From the IMG/VR virus record IMGVR_UViG_3300017763_000233, positions 1 to 22,020 of that record: a stretch of 22,020 nt of DNA, one strand, 5' to 3'. Positions 16,291 through 22,020 of this stretch are shown piece by piece. The position numbers and the translations under genes were made by a program. Positions within the stretch are counted from its first letter, which is position 1. Each line of letters begins with the position of its first letter. The stretch is from a virus. The notes under the pieces were generated by a model, which had not been told where the DNA came from, ran no database searches, and saw nothing but the letters and a program-made list of their open reading frames with translations.

Positions 16291-16719
16291 ATGGCTTGGG
16301 CAACAGCAGGAAACATTGTAGTAACAAATTTAGATGCAGGCACAGATTCGCCAGCATCAGCGAGAGCAGATCTAAAAGCGGCCTTAGATGAATTGACAAT
16401 AGTATCAAACAATTTGGGCACAACAGATGGTGCGGCCAAAATAGAGTCAGATGGTGTTATCCGTGCCAGTGTCACAGGTGTTTCAACAGCATCAGGTGAC
16501 TTGACATTAACAAGTGCCACATCAAAAGTGGTCATTAACGACATCATAAATTTAACACCAAAGACAAAAGCAGAATTAGACGCATTGACATCAGCAGGTT
16601 CAACAACCAATGGTGACGTCGCTGTTTGCAGTAATGGTAATGCAGGTGCACAATGCCTGGCTATACACAATGGTACTGCCTGGTTGAAATTTGATGGTGG
16701 TGCATTAAGCACATCATAG
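16291..16719 (+). CDS. Short tail fibre protein A with shared N-terminal docking domain
   Basis: 142 residues. Residues 1-41 (starting MAWATAGNIVVTNLDAGTDS) are about two-thirds identical by eye to the start of the protein at 16824, including DSPASARADL at 19-28. After that the sequence diverges: a hinge (GTTDGAAKIESDG), repeated Thr/Ser/Val strands, the segment LTPKTKAELDALTSAG, and the ending GNAGAQCLAIHNGTAWLKFD, which is common in small fibre proteins. The first domain probably anchors to the tip, and the second is the exposed part. An AGGAG site precedes the ATG. No catalytic motif was seen. Confidence 0.75.
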   Translation: MAWATAGNIVVTNLDAGTDSPASARADLKAALDELTIVSNNLGTTDGAAKIESDGVIRASVTGVSTASGDLTLTSATSKVVINDIINLTPKTKAELDALTSAGSTTNGDVAVCSNGNAGAQCLAIHNGTAWLKFDGGALSTS

Positions 16720-17560: not shown

Positions 17561-17748
17561 TGACTGCGGATCCAAAATTTTGGCCTGACACACAAGATCT
17601 AGATGCAATTCCAGATCTTAAATTTGCAACTCCACACTGGAGATTTACCTTTGAACAGTACCTACAAGACTTCCTACACTACGAACCTTGGGAATACGAA
17701 CATCTAGACTGGTTATACCTAGAATACCAAAATATACTACAATCATAG
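17560..17748 (+). CDS. Small acidic, aromatic-rich hypothetical protein
   Basis: 62 residues from the ATG at 17560 (TAATG overlap with the previous gene); an earlier in-frame ATG at 17494 would read through the preceding gene and is less likely. The sequence is rich in Asp, Glu, Trp and Tyr (FWPDTQDLDAIPDLKFATPH, LQDFLHYEPWEYEHLDWLYL). It has no membrane segment. It is the last gene of the rightward structural operon. The family is unrecognised. It could be a partner of the coiled-coil membrane protein because of the coupling. Confidence 0.6.
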   Translation: MTADPKFWPDTQDLDAIPDLKFATPHWRFTFEQYLQDFLHYEPWEYEHLDWLYLEYQNILQS

Positions 17749-17776
17749 CAAATACATCCTAATTAGAAGCACACAG

Positions 17777-17796
17777 AGACCTTTTAAAGGGGGTCT
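17777..17796. terminator. Possible bidirectional terminator hairpin between convergent genes
   Basis: AGACC (17777-17781) pairs with GGTCT (17792-17796), and three T-G pairs can extend the stem inward to a TAAA loop. It lies between the end of the rightward virion operon (17748) and the end of a leftward gene (17831). A clear U-run is missing on both strands, so it is only a plausible terminator based on its place. Confidence 0.4.
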
Positions 17797-17830
17797 AAGT
17801 GGTCACCTGGTATGTTTGTATGTCCGTATT

Positions 17831-18094
17831 TTAAGGGGTTATTTCTAACAAGGCAAATCCATCGTCTTTGTATCTTCTACGGAGTTTTTCTACTGCCAAC
17901 CAACCTGATGCTTCAGTGGCCCAACAACTTTTTAGATATTTGAATCCAGTACTGGCCTGTCTGGTGTCAGTCCTTATCTTGGCCAACTTGCCATTGTACG
18001 TGAGATGCCATACTGCGTCCACAGTCTGTATGGCCTGATCATAACCATTGGGTAGTGTGATTGACAATTCTATCTGATATTGCTTTCTAGCCAT
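17831..18094 (-). CDS. Small hypothetical protein under a consensus promoter
   Basis: 87 residues from the ATG at 18094, chosen because AAGGAA lies eight bases before it and a consensus promoter lies just upstream; a longer in-frame start at 18202 would place the promoter inside the gene. The sequence begins MARKQYQIELSITLPNGYDQ, includes VWHLTYNGKLAKIRTDTRQA, and has a conserved-looking middle (KYLKSCWATEASGWLAVEKL) and a basic segment RRRY. It is compact, probably cytoplasmic. No known family is recognised. Convergent with the virion operon and expressed alone, it may be an early or lysogeny-phase protein. Confidence 0.7.
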   Translation of the reverse strand: MARKQYQIELSITLPNGYDQAIQTVDAVWHLTYNGKLAKIRTDTRQASTGFKYLKSCWATEASGWLAVEKLRRRYKDDGFALLEITP

Positions 18095-18112
18095 AGTTTG
18101 GTTCCTTGTGCT

Positions 18113-18141
18113 ATTATATTTAATATGATTGACGTTGTCAA
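18113..18141 (-). promoter_or_regulatory. Perfect-consensus sigma-70 promoter (minus strand)
   Basis: On the minus strand TTGACA (18141-18136) and TATAAT (18118-18113) are separated by 17 bases, a full match to the sigma-70 consensus. It would start transcription near 18106 and drive the 87-aa gene with a very short leader. The -35 lies within an inverted repeat TTGAC-GTT-GTCAA (18129-18141), a possible operator. Confidence 0.85.
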
Positions 18142-18149
18142 GAAAGATA

Positions 18150-18206
18150 CAGGGTGGAGGTATGTAGATTTTACAAAGGAGATCTAACACAAATGTCTCC
18201 ACCCTG
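18150..18206. ncRNA. Candidate structured RNA element with long perfect stem
   Basis: CAGGGTGGAG (18150-18159) pairs perfectly with CTCCACCCTG (18197-18206). Within its 37-base loop TAGAT (18165-18169) pairs with ATCTA (18182-18186), which leaves AAAGGAG in the apical loop. A second small stem CAGACA/TGTCTG follows downstream. There is no gene I trust in this 290-base stretch. The strand of transcription is unknown. It could be a regulatory leader, a small RNA, or a protein-binding site. Confidence 0.4.
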
Positions 18207-18259
18207 CTTTAAGGAGCATATCCGACATCAGACACTACTTGTAAATGTCTGTCTTGGTG

Positions 18260-18287
18260 AAAACATCTAATGCCAGGTAGATGTTTT
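18260..18287. terminator. Bidirectional intrinsic terminator
   Basis: AAAACATCTA (18260-18269) pairs perfectly with TAGATGTTTT (18278-18287) around an 8-base loop. The stem ends in A and T tracts on both strands, and GCTTTT follows on the plus strand. It would stop leftward transcription from the lipoprotein operon before it enters the 87-aa gene, and also end any rightward transcript of the structured element at 18150-18206. Confidence 0.55.
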
Positions 18288-18385
18288 GCTTTTAGGAAGG
18301 AGCCTACCAAGTATGGCGTCTATACTAAAAATAACTATTGCAAGTTATTATGTATATTTATACTATTTCTTGTGGGGTATTGTCA

Positions 18386-18532
18386 ATGAAAAAAACACTG
18401 ATCCAACAACATTATGCCTATGACTGTGATCAGTCGTTGCTGGACCAGTGCTATCAAAAGGCGAAGAAGGTTTATGACGACCTAGTAGACCTTTTGAATC
18501 CTGTCTATAATCTGTATATGTCCCAAAGATGA
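18386..18532 (+). CDS. Small hypothetical protein convergent with the leftward operon
   Basis: 48 residues: begins MKKTLIQQHYAYDCDQSLLD, includes QCYQKAKKVYDDLVDLLNPV, ends YNLYMSQR. It is helical and charged, with an in-frame upstream ATG at 18338 that lacks a ribosome site. Support is modest: the site before the start is only GGGG at about nine bases, and the promoter candidates nearby have poor spacing. Its 3' end overlaps the end of a minus-strand ORF by 28 bases. No family is recognised. Confidence 0.42.
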   Translation: MKKTLIQQHYAYDCDQSLLDQCYQKAKKVYDDLVDLLNPVYNLYMSQR

Positions 18533-18663
18533 TCTTGCAATGAAGTGAACAACAACTGTTGATCAAGTGTTCTTGGTTTGACCAATTTCAATCTATTGTA
18601 CAATGCAACCAGTTCTTGCAATTTTATTTTAGAGAAATCATATGGATATGGAGCCTGTGACAT
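18505..18663 (-). CDS. Small hypothetical protein coupled to the lipoprotein gene
   Basis: 52 residues from the ATG at 18663, which overlaps the lipoprotein stop by TAATG, the same coupling seen elsewhere in this genome; the longer start at 18699 would overlap more. The protein reads MSQAPYPYDFSKIKLQELVA and then LYNRLKLVKPRTLDQQLLFT, ending with a helical LQDHLWDIYRL. It appears soluble and helical. There is no known family. Coupling to the lipoprotein suggests a shared role, perhaps at the envelope. Confidence 0.58.
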   Translation of the reverse strand: MSQAPYPYDFSKIKLQELVALYNRLKLVKPRTLDQQLLFTSLQDHLWDIYRL

Positions 18664-18968
18664 TATTTGACCACACTGTGTCCACGACCTTCTAGGCATC
18701 GTTGGACTCTGGTTTTGTAATCACTCTGTTTCCTAGGTATCACACCCAAGGTCACAGTTGATGCATATATGTTGATGGCCTGTTGCCAAGTGTCCCAACT
18801 TCTCACAGTGTGTTCATCTGCAAGTTCTCTACAATGTTGTACGTCATTGGTTATTTCTCTGGCTTTGTCTTCATCATATGTGCCTGATCTACCAGCGGTA
18901 TCAATCACTGGATTGTAAGCACAGGCTGTCATTGATAACAACAACAGTACTGGTATTATTTTCTTCAT
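18663..18968 (-). CDS. Lipoprotein, shortened relative of glycine-zipper outer membrane lipoproteins
   Basis: 101 residues. MKKIIPVLLLLSMTAC is a lipoprotein signal peptide with the lipidated cysteine at position 16. The mature part starts YNPVIDTAGRSGTYDEDKAR, continues DVQHCRELADEH, and ends RVQRCLEGRGHSVV. The PVIDT and CLxGRG segments recall bacterial glycine-zipper lipoproteins, but the glycine-rich middle is absent here. AAGGAAAGG precedes the start and a near-consensus promoter is present. Likely sited at the outer or inner membrane of a Gram-negative host. Plausible roles are superinfection exclusion or a spanin-like lysis function; neither is shown by the sequence. Confidence 0.82.
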   Translation of the reverse strand: MKKIIPVLLLLSMTACAYNPVIDTAGRSGTYDEDKAREITNDVQHCRELADEHTVRSWDTWQQAINIYASTVTLGVIPRKQSDYKTRVQRCLEGRGHSVVK

Positions 18969-18994
18969 ACTATGCCTTTCCTTGTTATAGTGTT

Positions 18995-19023
18995 ATTATA
19001 CATTATTTTCCAATTTTAGTCAA
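18995..19023 (-). promoter_or_regulatory. Near-consensus sigma-70 promoter for the lipoprotein operon
   Basis: On the minus strand TTGACT (19023-19018) and TATAAT (19000-18995) are 17 bases apart, eleven of twelve consensus bases. The start site would be near 18988, giving a leader of about 20 bases with a strong AAGGAAAGG site. The -35 begins one base after the hairpin that ends the upstream ParB-like transcript. Confidence 0.82.
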
Positions 19024-19024
19024 T

Positions 19025-19048
19025 GGGGCAATAGTTTTCTACTGCCCC
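19025..19048 (-). terminator. Hairpin after the ParB-like gene, near copy of the capsid hairpin
   Basis: On the minus strand GGGGCAGTAG (19048-19039) pairs with CTATTGCCCC (19034-19025) around AAAA; the stem has one G-U pair in the same place as the hairpin at 5550-5575. It lies 25 bases after the ParB-like stop codon and has no U-run. Terminator or 3'-end stabiliser. Confidence 0.6.
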
Positions 19049-19073
19049 TAGCAATTGACCAATCTTTAAAGGA

Positions 19074-19961
19074 TTATTCTAGTTGACCCGCTTTGGCATA
19101 AACTTCACCAATAACTTTTTTGGCAAAAGGGGCTCGCTTGTTGTTGATCTTGCACCAATCATACCAATCACAGTACAAACCATATGCCACTGATATGCCA
19201 TAGTGGTTATCTTTTCTCAACTGTGGGTAACTCATTTTGTTCTGTTCAACAGTTTTGGACTTGTCTTCTAGGAATGACACAAAGTCTGTTTCATACTTGT
19301 CCCAATCCATTAAGTCTTTGTCAATGAATTTGATCAAATTGATCAAACCTTCTAGAAACATCACGTTGTAATGTCCATCAAGGTTATAAACTTCGTTGAT
19401 CAGTTCACAGGCCTTCTTGGTTCTGTTTTGATCTTTTTTCCAAAACGATTGCCACTTGGCTATCTTGATCGTTTTGCCTTTCTTAAGGCCCACTGTGTTG
19501 TCAGCACTTGTGACTCTGGCCTTACACTCTTTCAGGCCTTTCTCCAGTTCTAGAGCACCTACTTCTTTGCCTAAAACCTGAGCAACAAATTTTTCTTCGT
19601 TGTTCACTGCTTTACTGCAAGTGCCATTTAATCTGTGAAACAGTTGTGCTGACTGTTCAACAGTCCATTCTTTGCTATTACCATTTAAAATGATAGCAGG
19701 CACTTCAGTCACATCTGGCAAATATTTCTTGACCAGATACAGTCTGTGTCCACCATCTACCACTTCTAGTTTGCCATCTGGATATCTCACACAAGAGATT
19801 GCACCAAAAAGGTTCCAGTCAAATACTCCTACTTCACGAATATAACTGTCTGCTTTGGTTGTGTATATTTTTCTTTGTGCTTGGACATTGGGTGTGTCTA
19901 CTGACACATTTTCAGCACTTTGAATAGGTGTGCCTTCGACCTTTATTTCTTGTTCATTCAT
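19074..19961 (-). CDS. ParB/Srx-fold protein with DGGHR motif
   Basis: 295 residues from the ATG at 19961, chosen for the AAGGAG six bases before it; the in-frame ATG at 20039 lies inside the promoter. The N-terminal part (about 35-125) is a ParB/sulfiredoxin-type domain: a substrate-like region with YIREVGVFDWNLFGAI, then EVVDGGHRLYLVKKY with the core DGGHR at 69-73, and VPAIILNG. In ParB-like proteins this motif binds nucleotide or phosphate. The rest is helical and Lys-rich with no clear HTH, so DNA binding cannot be claimed. Being alone under its own promoter next to a divergent control region, it may regulate or partition, or modify proteins or nucleotides. Confidence 0.72.
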   Translation of the reverse strand: MNEQEIKVEGTPIQSAENVSVDTPNVQAQRKIYTTKADSYIREVGVFDWNLFGAISCVRYPDGKLEVVDGGHRLYLVKKYLPDVTEVPAIILNGNSKEWTVEQSAQLFHRLNGTCSKAVNNEEKFVAQVLGKEVGALELEKGLKECKARVTSADNTVGLKKGKTIKIAKWQSFWKKDQNRTKKACELINEVYNLDGHYNVMFLEGLINLIKFIDKDLMDWDKYETDFVSFLEDKSKTVEQNKMSYPQLRKDNHYGISVAYGLYCDWYDWCKINNKRAPFAKKVIGEVYAKAGQLE

Positions 19962-20027
19962 CTTTTTCTCCTTTGTTAGATGTGTTATTATTACAACCAA
20001 GAAACTACTTGTCTTGATTGTCTTTAC

Positions 20028-20056
20028 AGTATAACACAATCTCCTGCAAGTGTCAA
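20028..20056 (-). promoter_or_regulatory. Leftward promoter for the ParB-like gene
   Basis: On the minus strand TTGACA (20056-20051) and TATACT (20033-20028) are 17 bases apart, eleven of twelve consensus bases. Transcription would start near 20021 and give a leader of about 60 bases to the ATG at 19961. It is one half of the divergent control region. Confidence 0.83.
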
Positions 20057-20058
20057 TA

Positions 20059-20080
20059 GGTCAATTTTGCCAACTTGACC
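20059..20080. promoter_or_regulatory. Operator-like inverted repeat between divergent promoters
   Basis: GGTCAA (20059-20064) and TTGACC (20075-20080) form a perfect 6-bp inverted repeat with a 10-base spacer, about two helical turns end to end. It sits between the two -35 boxes (20051-20056 and 20090-20095), which are themselves TGTCAA and TTGACA. A dimeric regulator bound here could control both promoters. Confidence 0.55.
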
Positions 20081-20089
20081 TGGAAAAAG

Positions 20090-20119
20090 TTGACAAAACC
20101 ATCAAAAAGATGCTATTAT
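20090..20119 (+). promoter_or_regulatory. Rightward promoter for the 20173 operon
   Basis: TTGACA (20090-20095) and TATTAT (20114-20119) are 18 bases apart. Transcription would begin near 20126, inside the left arm of the inverted repeat at 20124-20151. It is the only good rightward promoter I found in the window and would serve 20173-21898 and whatever follows. Confidence 0.75.
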
Positions 20120-20123
20120 AAGG

Positions 20124-20151
20124 GTATATTTAGAAATTTCGCTAAATATAC
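20124..20151 (+). promoter_or_regulatory. 10-bp inverted repeat at the rightward transcription start
   Basis: GTATATTTAG (20124-20133) and CTAAATATAC (20142-20151) are perfect inverted complements with an 8-base spacer. It covers the expected start site of the rightward promoter, so it may be a repressor operator. It could also form a hairpin at the extreme 5' end of the mRNA that protects it from decay. Confidence 0.6.
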
Positions 20152-20172
20152 AAACAACAAGGAGAATGCCAA

Positions 20173-20931
20173 ATGCAAAACATCACTGAAGCAGTTGCGG
20201 ATTTCCTAGATCAACAGGACAAGTTGGTTGAAAAGGACACCCGGAACTATAATAACAATAATAAAGATAATAAAGATAATAAAAAAATAATCAATTATAA
20301 GCAAACGGGTAAACGACTTTCTTTAAATGAAGTCGCTCCGCTCTCTGTTGGCACAGATATTTCTGCCAAGGAAGAGCAAGGTAGGGATCTCTCCAAAAAA
20401 TGGAGGACCGTAAAACTAGATCTTTTCAACAACACTAAAAATCCCAACAAACCATATGATTACACATTGAAGGTCAGCATATACCTATACCAACAATGCA
20501 AGGAGAACAACTGGGACAGCAAAAACCCAATAAATTTATCTGCCAAGTTCAATGACACCAGTTTAGATTCATTCAACATAGGCATTGTGAAAAGTGATCC
20601 ACACTATAGAGAAGCAAGACAGTTCAGAGATGACATATACGTGGATGCAAACCAATTGGGCATAGAACATATGAGTTTGAACAAGTTCTACATACCCAGC
20701 AAGAACAAAAAAATCAAAAACAAAAGCATAAAGAACTTCTCAGGCCTTTTGATAAGAGACCCCAACACACACAGGGTGGTGATATTCAAAGGACAAGAAA
20801 GATATCAATATGAATTGAGCAATACAGGATTGACAACCAAACAAAGACAAGTAGGCATAATCGGAAGTTGTGTTGTAAGGGCAGAAGACGGCCTGAAAAC
20901 ATCACAACAAGATGCCAACGATTTCTTATAG
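20173..20931 (+). CDS. Unrecognised protein with Asn/Lys-rich N-terminal tract, first gene of the rightward operon
   Basis: 252 residues. The start is preceded by AAGGAG at nine bases. Residues 1-22 are helical (MQNITEAVADFLDQQDKLVE), residues 25-40 form an Asn/Lys/Asp run encoded by 9-base repeats, then come KRLSLNEVAPLSVGTDI and a charged folded part: WRTVKLDLFNNTKNPNKPYD, LKVSIYLYQQCKENNWDSKN, EARQFRDDIYVDANQLGIEH, and a late FSGLLIRDPNTHRVVIFKGQ. It ends VVRAEDGLKTSQQDANDFL. No family is recognised. Its promoter-proximal position suggests an early or replication role. The lambda O gene, which carries the origin within itself, is a loose parallel. Confidence 0.72.
   Translation: MQNITEAVADFLDQQDKLVEKDTRNYNNNNKDNKDNKKIINYKQTGKRLSLNEVAPLSVGTDISAKEEQGRDLSKKWRTVKLDLFNNTKNPNKPYDYTLKVSIYLYQQCKENNWDSKNPINLSAKFNDTSLDSFNIGIVKSDPHYREARQFRDDIYVDANQLGIEHMSLNKFYIPSKNKKIKNKSIKNFSGLLIRDPNTHRVVIFKGQERYQYELSNTGLTTKQRQVGIIGSCVVRAEDGLKTSQQDANDFL
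20258..20284 (+). repeat. Three tandem 9-base AT-rich repeats
   Basis: The unit ATAATAAAG occurs at 20258-20266 and 20267-20275, with a third copy ending in A instead of G at 20276-20284. They lie in a stretch of nearly pure A/T at about 20248-20300. They keep the reading frame and encode the Asn/Lys/Asp tract of the gene. They may be iterons or an unwinding element of an origin, or a simple slippage product. Confidence 0.6.
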
Positions 20932-20939
20932 GAGACACA

Positions 20940-21278
20940 ATGAAGAACAAACAAGCACAGATCAACGCCAACATACAGTGGCCAGACAACATATGGGTCT
21001 ACAAGCGAGTGCCCAAAGGTCCATACAGGAAATGCAATGAGAACAAACTCAAGTACACAGAACACTATGACATCAGATTGGTGCCCAGTGATCACAGATG
21101 GGGATTGAGGCAGAAAGGTTGGAAGATACATCCAGACCAAGATCTACCACCGGAGATATTGAACTGGAGACCAGCGGTCAAACCCAGATTGAAACCTGCT
21201 ACTGAAACAACAATGCAACCTATGATAAGAACAAAAACCAAAGCCACAGTCAAACACAAACAAGGACAGACACAATGA
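20940..21278 (+). CDS. Unrecognised basic protein
   Basis: 112 residues from the ATG at 20940, with AGGAGA five bases before it that overlaps the previous stop; an in-frame ATG at 20868 would run far into the upstream gene. It begins MKNKQAQINANIQWPDNIWV, continues YKRVPKGPYRKCNENKLKYT and RWGLRQKGWKIHPDQDLPPE, and ends in a Lys/Thr/Pro-rich tail (TETTMQPMIRTKTKATVKHK). The basic charge and tail suggest nucleic-acid binding. Start and stop overlap both neighbours, so the three genes are cotranslated. No family is known to me. Confidence 0.65.
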   Translation: MKNKQAQINANIQWPDNIWVYKRVPKGPYRKCNENKLKYTEHYDIRLVPSDHRWGLRQKGWKIHPDQDLPPEILNWRPAVKPRLKPATETTMQPMIRTKTKATVKHKQGQTQ

Positions 21279-21898
21279 TACACTTTCCGTACAAAGTAAA
21301 AAACACAGGAGCCAACACAACTTATGTAGAACCAATCGATCAAAAAGATCTAGATAACCTATGTGACACACTGCACACAGGATACAGCAGGTTGGTAGAA
21401 ATGGCCATAGACAACAAAGAGATATGCAAACAGAGATGTGTGCCAGAACAGGGATTGAACAGAGTCAAAATCAGCAAACCAACCAAGATAGCATTGAAAA
21501 AATGGTTTGGACAAAAACATCCTTCGCTGTCGGTGAATCCAAATCCCAAGAACATAACAGGATTGAAAGGACAGACTTTCTTGAGATTCATCAATGGTAA
21601 TCTAAACAAATTATACAGGGTCAAAAACAAAAAAGAAGATCTATCTGAAGAGTTGTTGGCACAATACAACAAGATGATCAATTTGATTGAACAATATATC
21701 GCTAGAGAATGGAACAAGCAAGATCAAGCAATAATGCAATCAAAATTTACCCAAAAACAGATTGACTTTGAATTGAATCAGATGTTTAAATTTGGTAATT
21801 TCTTGGACACACTGAAAATTGATGCTTACAACCAAATAACAAGAGCAAACAACAACAAAAACAAACAACTCACAGACACCGGCTTGTTTTCTAAATGA
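21275..21898 (+). CDS. Unrecognised helical protein
   Basis: 207 residues. It begins MIHFPYKVKNTGANTTYVEP, continues LDNLCDTLHTGYSRLVEMAI, then KISKPTKIALKKWFGQKHPS, and the second half is helical and Lys/Gln/Asn-rich (NKMINLIEQYIAREWNKQDQ, FELNQMFKFGNFLDTLKIDA). ATGA overlaps link it to the gene before and to the HNH-like ORF after. A replication-associated or DNA-binding role is possible from context only. There is no helicase Walker motif and no polymerase motif. Confidence 0.66.
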   Translation: MIHFPYKVKNTGANTTYVEPIDQKDLDNLCDTLHTGYSRLVEMAIDNKEICKQRCVPEQGLNRVKISKPTKIALKKWFGQKHPSLSVNPNPKNITGLKGQTFLRFINGNLNKLYRVKNKKEDLSEELLAQYNKMINLIEQYIAREWNKQDQAIMQSKFTQKQIDFELNQMFKFGNFLDTLKIDAYNQITRANNNKNKQLTDTGLFSK

Positions 21899-22020
21899 AG
21901 TTGATCAAAGATCCTGATCAAACCCTTTGGTTGATATGGCATCTGATGAGCAAGTGTGAAATAGATAAAAAAAATGACAGTTGCTGGGAATGGAGAGGTA
22001 GATACTCAGGGGGATATGGA
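21895..22020 (+). CDS. HNH-like protein, N-terminal 42 residues, cut by the window end
   Basis: Open from the ATG at 21895 (overlapping the previous stop as ATGA) to the last base. The sequence MKLIKDPDQTLWLIWHLMSK is followed by CEIDKKNDSCWEWRGRYSGG and YG. The segment CWEWRG...GGYG is the usual N-terminal signature of small phage HNH proteins (CW.W.G...GYG), whose catalytic His-Asn-His core lies further on and is not visible here. HNH genes often lie right before the terminases, where the nuclease can aid packaging. If the molecule is circular, the gene would continue at base 1 and end at 60, giving a 61-residue protein without an HNH core. Otherwise it simply runs off the window. Confidence 0.7.
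   Translation, partial: MKLIKDPDQTLWLIWHLMSKCEIDKKNDSCWEWRGRYSGGYG

Follow-up and report, generated by a model that had tools for sequence, protein, structure and literature searches.

Strong promoters facing away from each other are familiar from the immunity regions of lambda-type phages, in which divergent promoters are combined with operators for CI and Cro, and ParB-type regulators of partition systems often repress their own promoter. At the level of the RNA, stable 5' stem-loops that act independently of their sequence shield the ompA and T7 gene 10 messages from RNase E, according to the part of the literature on which we draw (PMC2254391), while the available account of the HK022 put elements places putL, with its two stem-loops, directly downstream of PL and gives putL and putR as elements of about 70 nt, each with two stems, that resemble one another in sequence (PMC9378689). 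Neither divergent promoters in phages nor 5' stem-loops are new, and the control region reported here is fairly ordinary apart from one unexpected feature that recurs: a stem-loop at the predicted start of the message.

The region lies in a linear virus record (G000) of 22,020 bases, the whole of which is called the window in what follows. Its genes for a large terminase, portal, tape measure and tail tip protein make up a tailed-phage set, it distantly resembles the Pelagibacter phages HTVC111P and HTVC026P and the freshwater phage DSL-LC06, and we regard its phage as an uncultured lambda-like siphovirus; some of the genome beyond the right end of the record, at position 22,020, may be missing. 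Close relatives found through a tail protein are short contigs that stop short of the control region (L002: 85% identity, 5.6 kb). When viral_contigs was scanned for exact peptides of the ParB-like protein, of the 252-aa protein and of the next two right-hand proteins, no close relative of this region was retrieved, tblastn of the ParB-like and 252-aa proteins against 50,697 phage records gave no match, and blastn of 17700-22020 found no relative; both genes are also absent from the 11 other records first examined. No Rfam family reached its gathering score in the window.

The control region, 19962-20172, is exactly the gap between an ATG at 19961 on the minus strand and an ATG at 20173 on the plus strand. 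The leftward unit opens with a ParB-like gene and the rightward unit with a gene for a 252-aa protein, the promoters and genes being as follows:

18113 to 18141, minus strand: third promoter, 12/12, with TTGAC-GTT-GTCAA (18129-18141) over its -35; short leader, no 5' stem-loop
18995 to 19023, minus strand: fourth promoter, TTGACT from 19023 and TATAAT ending at 18995, 11/12, no GTCAA partner; short leader, no 5' stem-loop
19074 to 19961, minus strand: ParB-like protein of 295 aa with the motif DGGHR, encoded at the head of the leftward transcript
20028 to 20056, minus strand: leftward sigma-70-type promoter, TTGACA (20056 to 20051), 17 nt, TATACT (20033 to 20028), 11/12, extended TG
20090 to 20119, plus strand: rightward sigma-70-type promoter, TTGACA (20090-20095), 18 nt, TATTAT (20114-20119), 11/12, extended TG
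20173 to 20931, plus strand: 252-aa protein, Asn-rich at its N-terminus, encoded at the head of the rightward transcript; homologues in L023, L050 and L073
20940 to 21278, plus strand: 112-aa protein, second gene of the rightward operon; no relatives found
21275 to 21898, plus strand: 207-aa protein, third gene of the rightward operon; no relatives found

Both outward-facing promoters are where the initial annotation had placed them, and the divergent pair is far above chance: the stretch 17750-20172 holds four promoters of at least 11/12, whereas 400 shuffles gave 0.10 on average and never as many as four or a divergent pair. The same annotation had described a third promoter with a TTGAC/GTCAA repeat over its -35, which is present, and had missed the fourth.

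The 252-aa protein belongs to a phage protein family with Asn-rich N-termini (window 20173-20931, L023 9015, L050 6374 and L073 7945), and within its gene a nine-base repeat (ATAATAAAG-like, 20249-20284) encodes an Asn/Asp/Lys-rich stretch. Its structural model (pLDDT 60, better in a domain at about 70-247) has clear matches to three uncharacterised phage models only; against solved structures there was no match, the best hit, VIA (Z 5.4, rmsd 3.3, 91 residues aligned), lying at an ordinary level. A profile scan with the family returned nothing, yet L023 was expected to match, and the scan must therefore be regarded as insensitive. On the other side of the ParB-like gene, positions 18663-18968 of the minus strand encode a 101-aa protein with a lipoprotein-like start, homologues of which are found in Pelagibacter phage HTVC111P (gp07), in L089 (56%) and in G402; this gene moves between phages with differing neighbours.

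Each of the two divergent transcripts is predicted to begin with a stem-loop:

20124 to 20151, plus strand: rightward 5'-terminal stem-loop of 10 bp, GTATATTTAG (20124-20133), 8-nt loop, CTAAATATAC (20142-20151)
19993 to 20021, minus strand: leftward 5'-terminal stem-loop of 10 bp including one G-U pair, ACAATCAAGA, 9-nt loop, TCTTGGTTGT

The perfect 10-bp inverted repeat on the rightward start had been noticed in the initial annotation and is borne out here; when the 211 bp were shuffled 2,000 times, 0.95% of the shuffles contained a 10-bp repeat whose loop was no longer than 30 nt. Its leftward twin had been overlooked, the G-U pair concealing it from a reading by exact repeats. The rightward stem-loop has a folding energy of -9.7 kcal/mol and the leftward one of -9.6 kcal/mol, stabilities equalled by fractions of 0.0006 and 0.0002, respectively, of 5,000 shuffles of their leaders; the first stem base comes 5 nt (rightward) and 7 nt (leftward) after the -10, and the arms of the two stems are identical at only 1 of 10 positions. 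Because the twins have place and strength in common and not sequence, we take them to work through the shape of the RNA and not through a shared operator; the palindrome is real, and an RNA stem-loop fits it better than an operator does.

The 3' arm of the right stem includes TAAATA (20143-20148), a motif that recurs 22-28 nt before the start codons of relatives, and this overlap may provide another cause for part of the rightward palindrome. TAAATA (often TATAAATA) is enriched at that distance, in 53 of 426 leaders compared with a mean of 20.8 in letter permutations, with further instances in the leader of the gene at 16291 and elsewhere (loci L015-L100), in an arrangement reminiscent of T4-type late promoters. 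One homologous gene may supply much of this excess, and whole relatives show little of it. In the homologues of the right-hand gene in L023 and L073 there is no leader hairpin, the feature being unconserved on that side.

The leftward side offers an independent test, since the ParB-like homologues were retrieved only after the hairpins of the window had been seen. Seven distinct phages carry the gene (the window, L093=L101, L102, L103=L104, L105, L106 and L107), and a hairpin was counted if it lay in the first 34 nt, had an energy of -5 or lower and formed its first pair within six bases. A promoter of at least 10/12 stands ahead of the ParB-like gene in five of the seven phages, and a stem-loop opens every one of the five leaders, compared with 6 of 62 other promoters that have a downstream gene (13 duplicate or same-contig loci being left out), the window's own rightward promoter being among these six. 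With the window excluded and L105 and L106 (ParB-like proteins 71% identical) counted once, the figures become 3/3 and 6/62 (P = 0.0019), for a small sample with predicted transcription starts. All four ParB-like promoters of the distant phages, representing three lineages, have the stem-loop at +1. Left out of the count were L093/L101 and L102 (no upstream promoter of at least 10/12), Ochrobactrum phage POI1126 (ParB-like gene inside an operon), and Synechococcus phage DSL-LC02 and Microcystis phage Mwe-JY08 (no promoter of at least 8/12 in the leader).

In the six hairpin leaders, two of which are those of the window, pairing begins 4-6 bases past the -10, where the polymerase is expected to start, and these leaders are long, with 57-96 nt from the -10 to the ATG compared with a median of 39. 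The number of stem-loops on the ParB-like leaders varies: that of the window has one, L107 one (with an A-C mismatch), L106 one at the start and a second further on, L103 two in tandem from +1, and L105 two in tandem from +1 with a third further on. We know of no earlier description of 5' stem-loops that recur in this way on ParB-like leaders from one distant phage to another.

Taken together, these observations suggest that the stem-loops most likely protect the 5' end of the mRNA, a reading of predicted leaders to which we assign a probability of about 0.5. According to this reading, the two host-type (sigma-70) promoters would fire outward, probably early, and each mRNA would open, within a base or two of the predicted +1, with a 10-bp stem that tucks the 5' end away, slowing both the removal of pyrophosphate and the entry of RNase E/J, while the ribosome would find its site further along, in A-rich single strand. 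With their 5' ends shielded in this way, these messages, which are probably early, would persist longer. The likeness to ompA and T7 gene 10, as far as the cited account of these goes, is twofold: (i) a stable stem-loop stands on or close beside the 5' end with no requirement for sequence, being within a few nt of the predicted start in all six leaders, and the two stems of the window are equal in energy although their arms match at 1 of 10 positions; and (ii) an A/T-rich leader with a Shine-Dalgarno site follows the stem-loop (PMC2254391). The window differs from these models in carrying stem-loops on both divergent transcripts, behind host-type promoters, and the protection is putative.

The main rival is that the start-site palindromes are DNA operators, over which the ParB-like protein (or a partner) binds at its own +1 and represses; we hold this to be rather unlikely. 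It shares with the autoregulation of partition operons a ParB-like first gene and palindromes at the start of the promoter, which are present in the ParB-like leaders of all five phages with a promoter. The palindromes of L105 and L106 are perfect, and in the distal one that they have in common a double change, from A-T to G-C, keeps the pair, which RNA and DNA readings predict alike. These palindromes are confined to the ParB leader within both 30-kb contigs (G017 and G018), so that they concern the ParB-like gene, at either level; a phage-wide operator was discarded, as they occur nowhere else in these contigs. In addition, a core, TTGTTTAA, is common to L102, L105 and L106, and in L102, where no promoter reaches 10/12, the palindrome (CAGATTGTTTAATCTG, which shares its core with the L106 stem) has this core directly behind TTGACA and away from any predicted start, an arrangement that would fit a DNA site as well as RNA. 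However, the palindromes differ in sequence within one phage (left and right in the window) and even within one leader (the three of L105), they begin at +1 in six of six leaders, and the ParB-like protein has no recognised DNA-binding domain, so that the locus departs from ParB autoregulation both in its protein and in the unlikeness of its palindromes. Strand asymmetry does not decide between the two levels: pairing is better on the sense strand, through G-U, in three stems (window left, L103 a and L103 b), and better on the antisense strand in L107. The evidence leans towards RNA rather than DNA, without being decisive, on account of the +1 register, the differing sequences and the paired 5' end.

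The protein itself is the only neighbour with a recognisable family, as had been claimed, through weak PHROG and ParB matches: it matches phrog_2558 weakly (E 0.0019), its homologue in L093 matches phrog_1033, 'ParB-like partition protein' (E 6.5e-5), and annotated ParB-like phage proteins are 22-32% identical to it. Most homologues have NGQHR where the window has DGGHR. No Pfam family scored above its cut-off, and an AlphaFold model made from two sequences (pLDDT 47) was too poor for use. Homologues were found neither in plasmids nor, at E 1e-8 and in a search run without a positive control, in 369 genomes of one bacterial class.

A further possibility, raised in the initial annotation, is a switch in which a single regulator coordinates the promoters by reading TTGAC/GTCAA half-sites, both those at 20058-20081 and those that cover the -35 at 18129-18141. 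The inner element is:

20058 to 20081, no strand assigned: inner inverted repeat AGGTCAA(10)TTGACCT, arms at 20058-20064 and 20075-20081, a perfect 7 bp between the -35 boxes; possible operator

This proposal we find improbable. The GGTCAA/TTGACC repeat is there, longer than described, and the four half-sites are nested as claimed but not concentric, the centres lying at 20069.5 and 20073. A 7-bp repeat within the 33 bp between the -35 boxes arises in 3.2% of 20,000 shuffles and GTCAA..TTGAC in 0.065%, the latter a pattern picked after it had been sighted; a GTCAA partner lies near the -35 of three of the four control-region promoters, compared with 8 of 101 TTGAC promoters overall (these three included), but two of the three use a single common repeat. 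L089 shares this layout; its repeat is of 8 bp (CGTCAAAA/TTTTGACG), and it carries a homologue of the window's lipoprotein. However, L092, nearly identical to L089 at this place, has both promoters intact and its left arm broken by one base (CGTCAAAA to CTTCAAAA), which argues that the repeat is dispensable in this pair. Among all loci, divergent pairs with a combined score of at least 21/24 number 12 rows or 11 distinct pairs, of which only two, those of the window and L089, hold GTCAA..TTGAC between the -35 boxes, the other nine lacking it.

The promoters of relatives tell against the switch as well. Those ahead of the 252-aa homologues (L023 12/12, L073 11/12) have no GTCAA partner within the tested range, and in L103, L105, L106 and L107 the surroundings of the promoters that precede the ParB-like homologues contain no GTCAA..TTGAC repeat. 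Wherever the comparison can be made, in all cases with distant relatives, the -35 boxes are kept and the repeats are not, the pattern that the initial annotation had itself set against its proposal. TTGAC is probably, to judge from these sequences, mainly the -35 signal. The TTGACC arms were also considered as -35 boxes of further promoters and rejected as such, since no such promoters appear in the promoter listing. The window holds two candidate operator copies, the inner repeat and the one at 18129, both absent in distant relatives, and no HTH repressor gene, CI/Cro-like or other, was recognised beside the promoters among the genes scanned, which are part of those in a fragmentary record that ends at 22,020. 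The region resembles the lambda-type CI/Cro arrangement in its strong back-to-back promoters with inverted repeats between them, and differs from it in that the repeats are few and, among the relatives compared, unconserved and no CI/Cro-like protein is seen among these genes. A TTGAC operator private to the window phage may exist, since the relatives compared are distant and no close one covers the region.

Behind the third promoter (18141 to 18113) there is an inverted repeat whose 10-bp arms enclose a 37-nt loop (18150-18206) and, after it, a 10-bp hairpin with a T-rich tail (18260-18290, fold z -3.3). G007 has a matching layout behind a 12/12 leftward promoter of its own (L019 8348-8415, 13-bp repeat, z -3.8), and a 12-mer from the arm of the G007 repeat recurs at the corresponding place in L073/L074 (L073 7700-7860); repeat and hairpin possibly form a small structured RNA. 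Separately, promoters right after tail genes in L086 (7862), L087 (5385) and L091 (6997) have leaders that start with a hairpin of 6-8 bp around an A/T-rich loop.

More speculatively, the ParB-like family could control itself through the 5' stem-loops of its mRNA, by a protein that reads the RNA shape or by a nascent-RNA element that acts on the polymerase, and not by a DNA operator. We give this only an outside chance; were it true, the sequences of the stem-loops would vary freely between phages while the shape stays.

That AT-rich leaders fold by accident, with the promoters alone being functional, seems to us very improbable: when the window is taken in 32-nt stretches on both strands, about 1.3% of them are equally stable, and six of the 62 other promoters pass the same test, but here both transcripts of a divergent pair carry such folds, each at P <0.001, as do four of four ParB-like leaders in other phages. 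Least probable of all are antitermination elements of the HK022 put kind, acting on the elongating polymerase in divergent early transcripts, to which stem-loops near the start of both transcripts and the two adjacent ones from +1 in L103 and L105 give some likeness, but the window, set against putL and putR as the cited text describes them, has single, short stem-loops of 28-29 nt in place of a two-stem-loop RNA of about 70 nt, no sequence common to its two sides (1 of 10 arm positions) and no downstream terminator shown as a target.

Protection of the 5' end is the reading that we retain, and the hairpins more likely steady or tune the message than mark a lambda-style switch. A tempting lambda-like switch built of TTGAC half-sites is thereby corrected, and a testable reading based on 5' hairpins is put in its place. 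Recurring without sequence conservation on the ParB-like leaders of distant phages, these hairpins represent a small but concrete lead on the control of uncharacterised phage genes.
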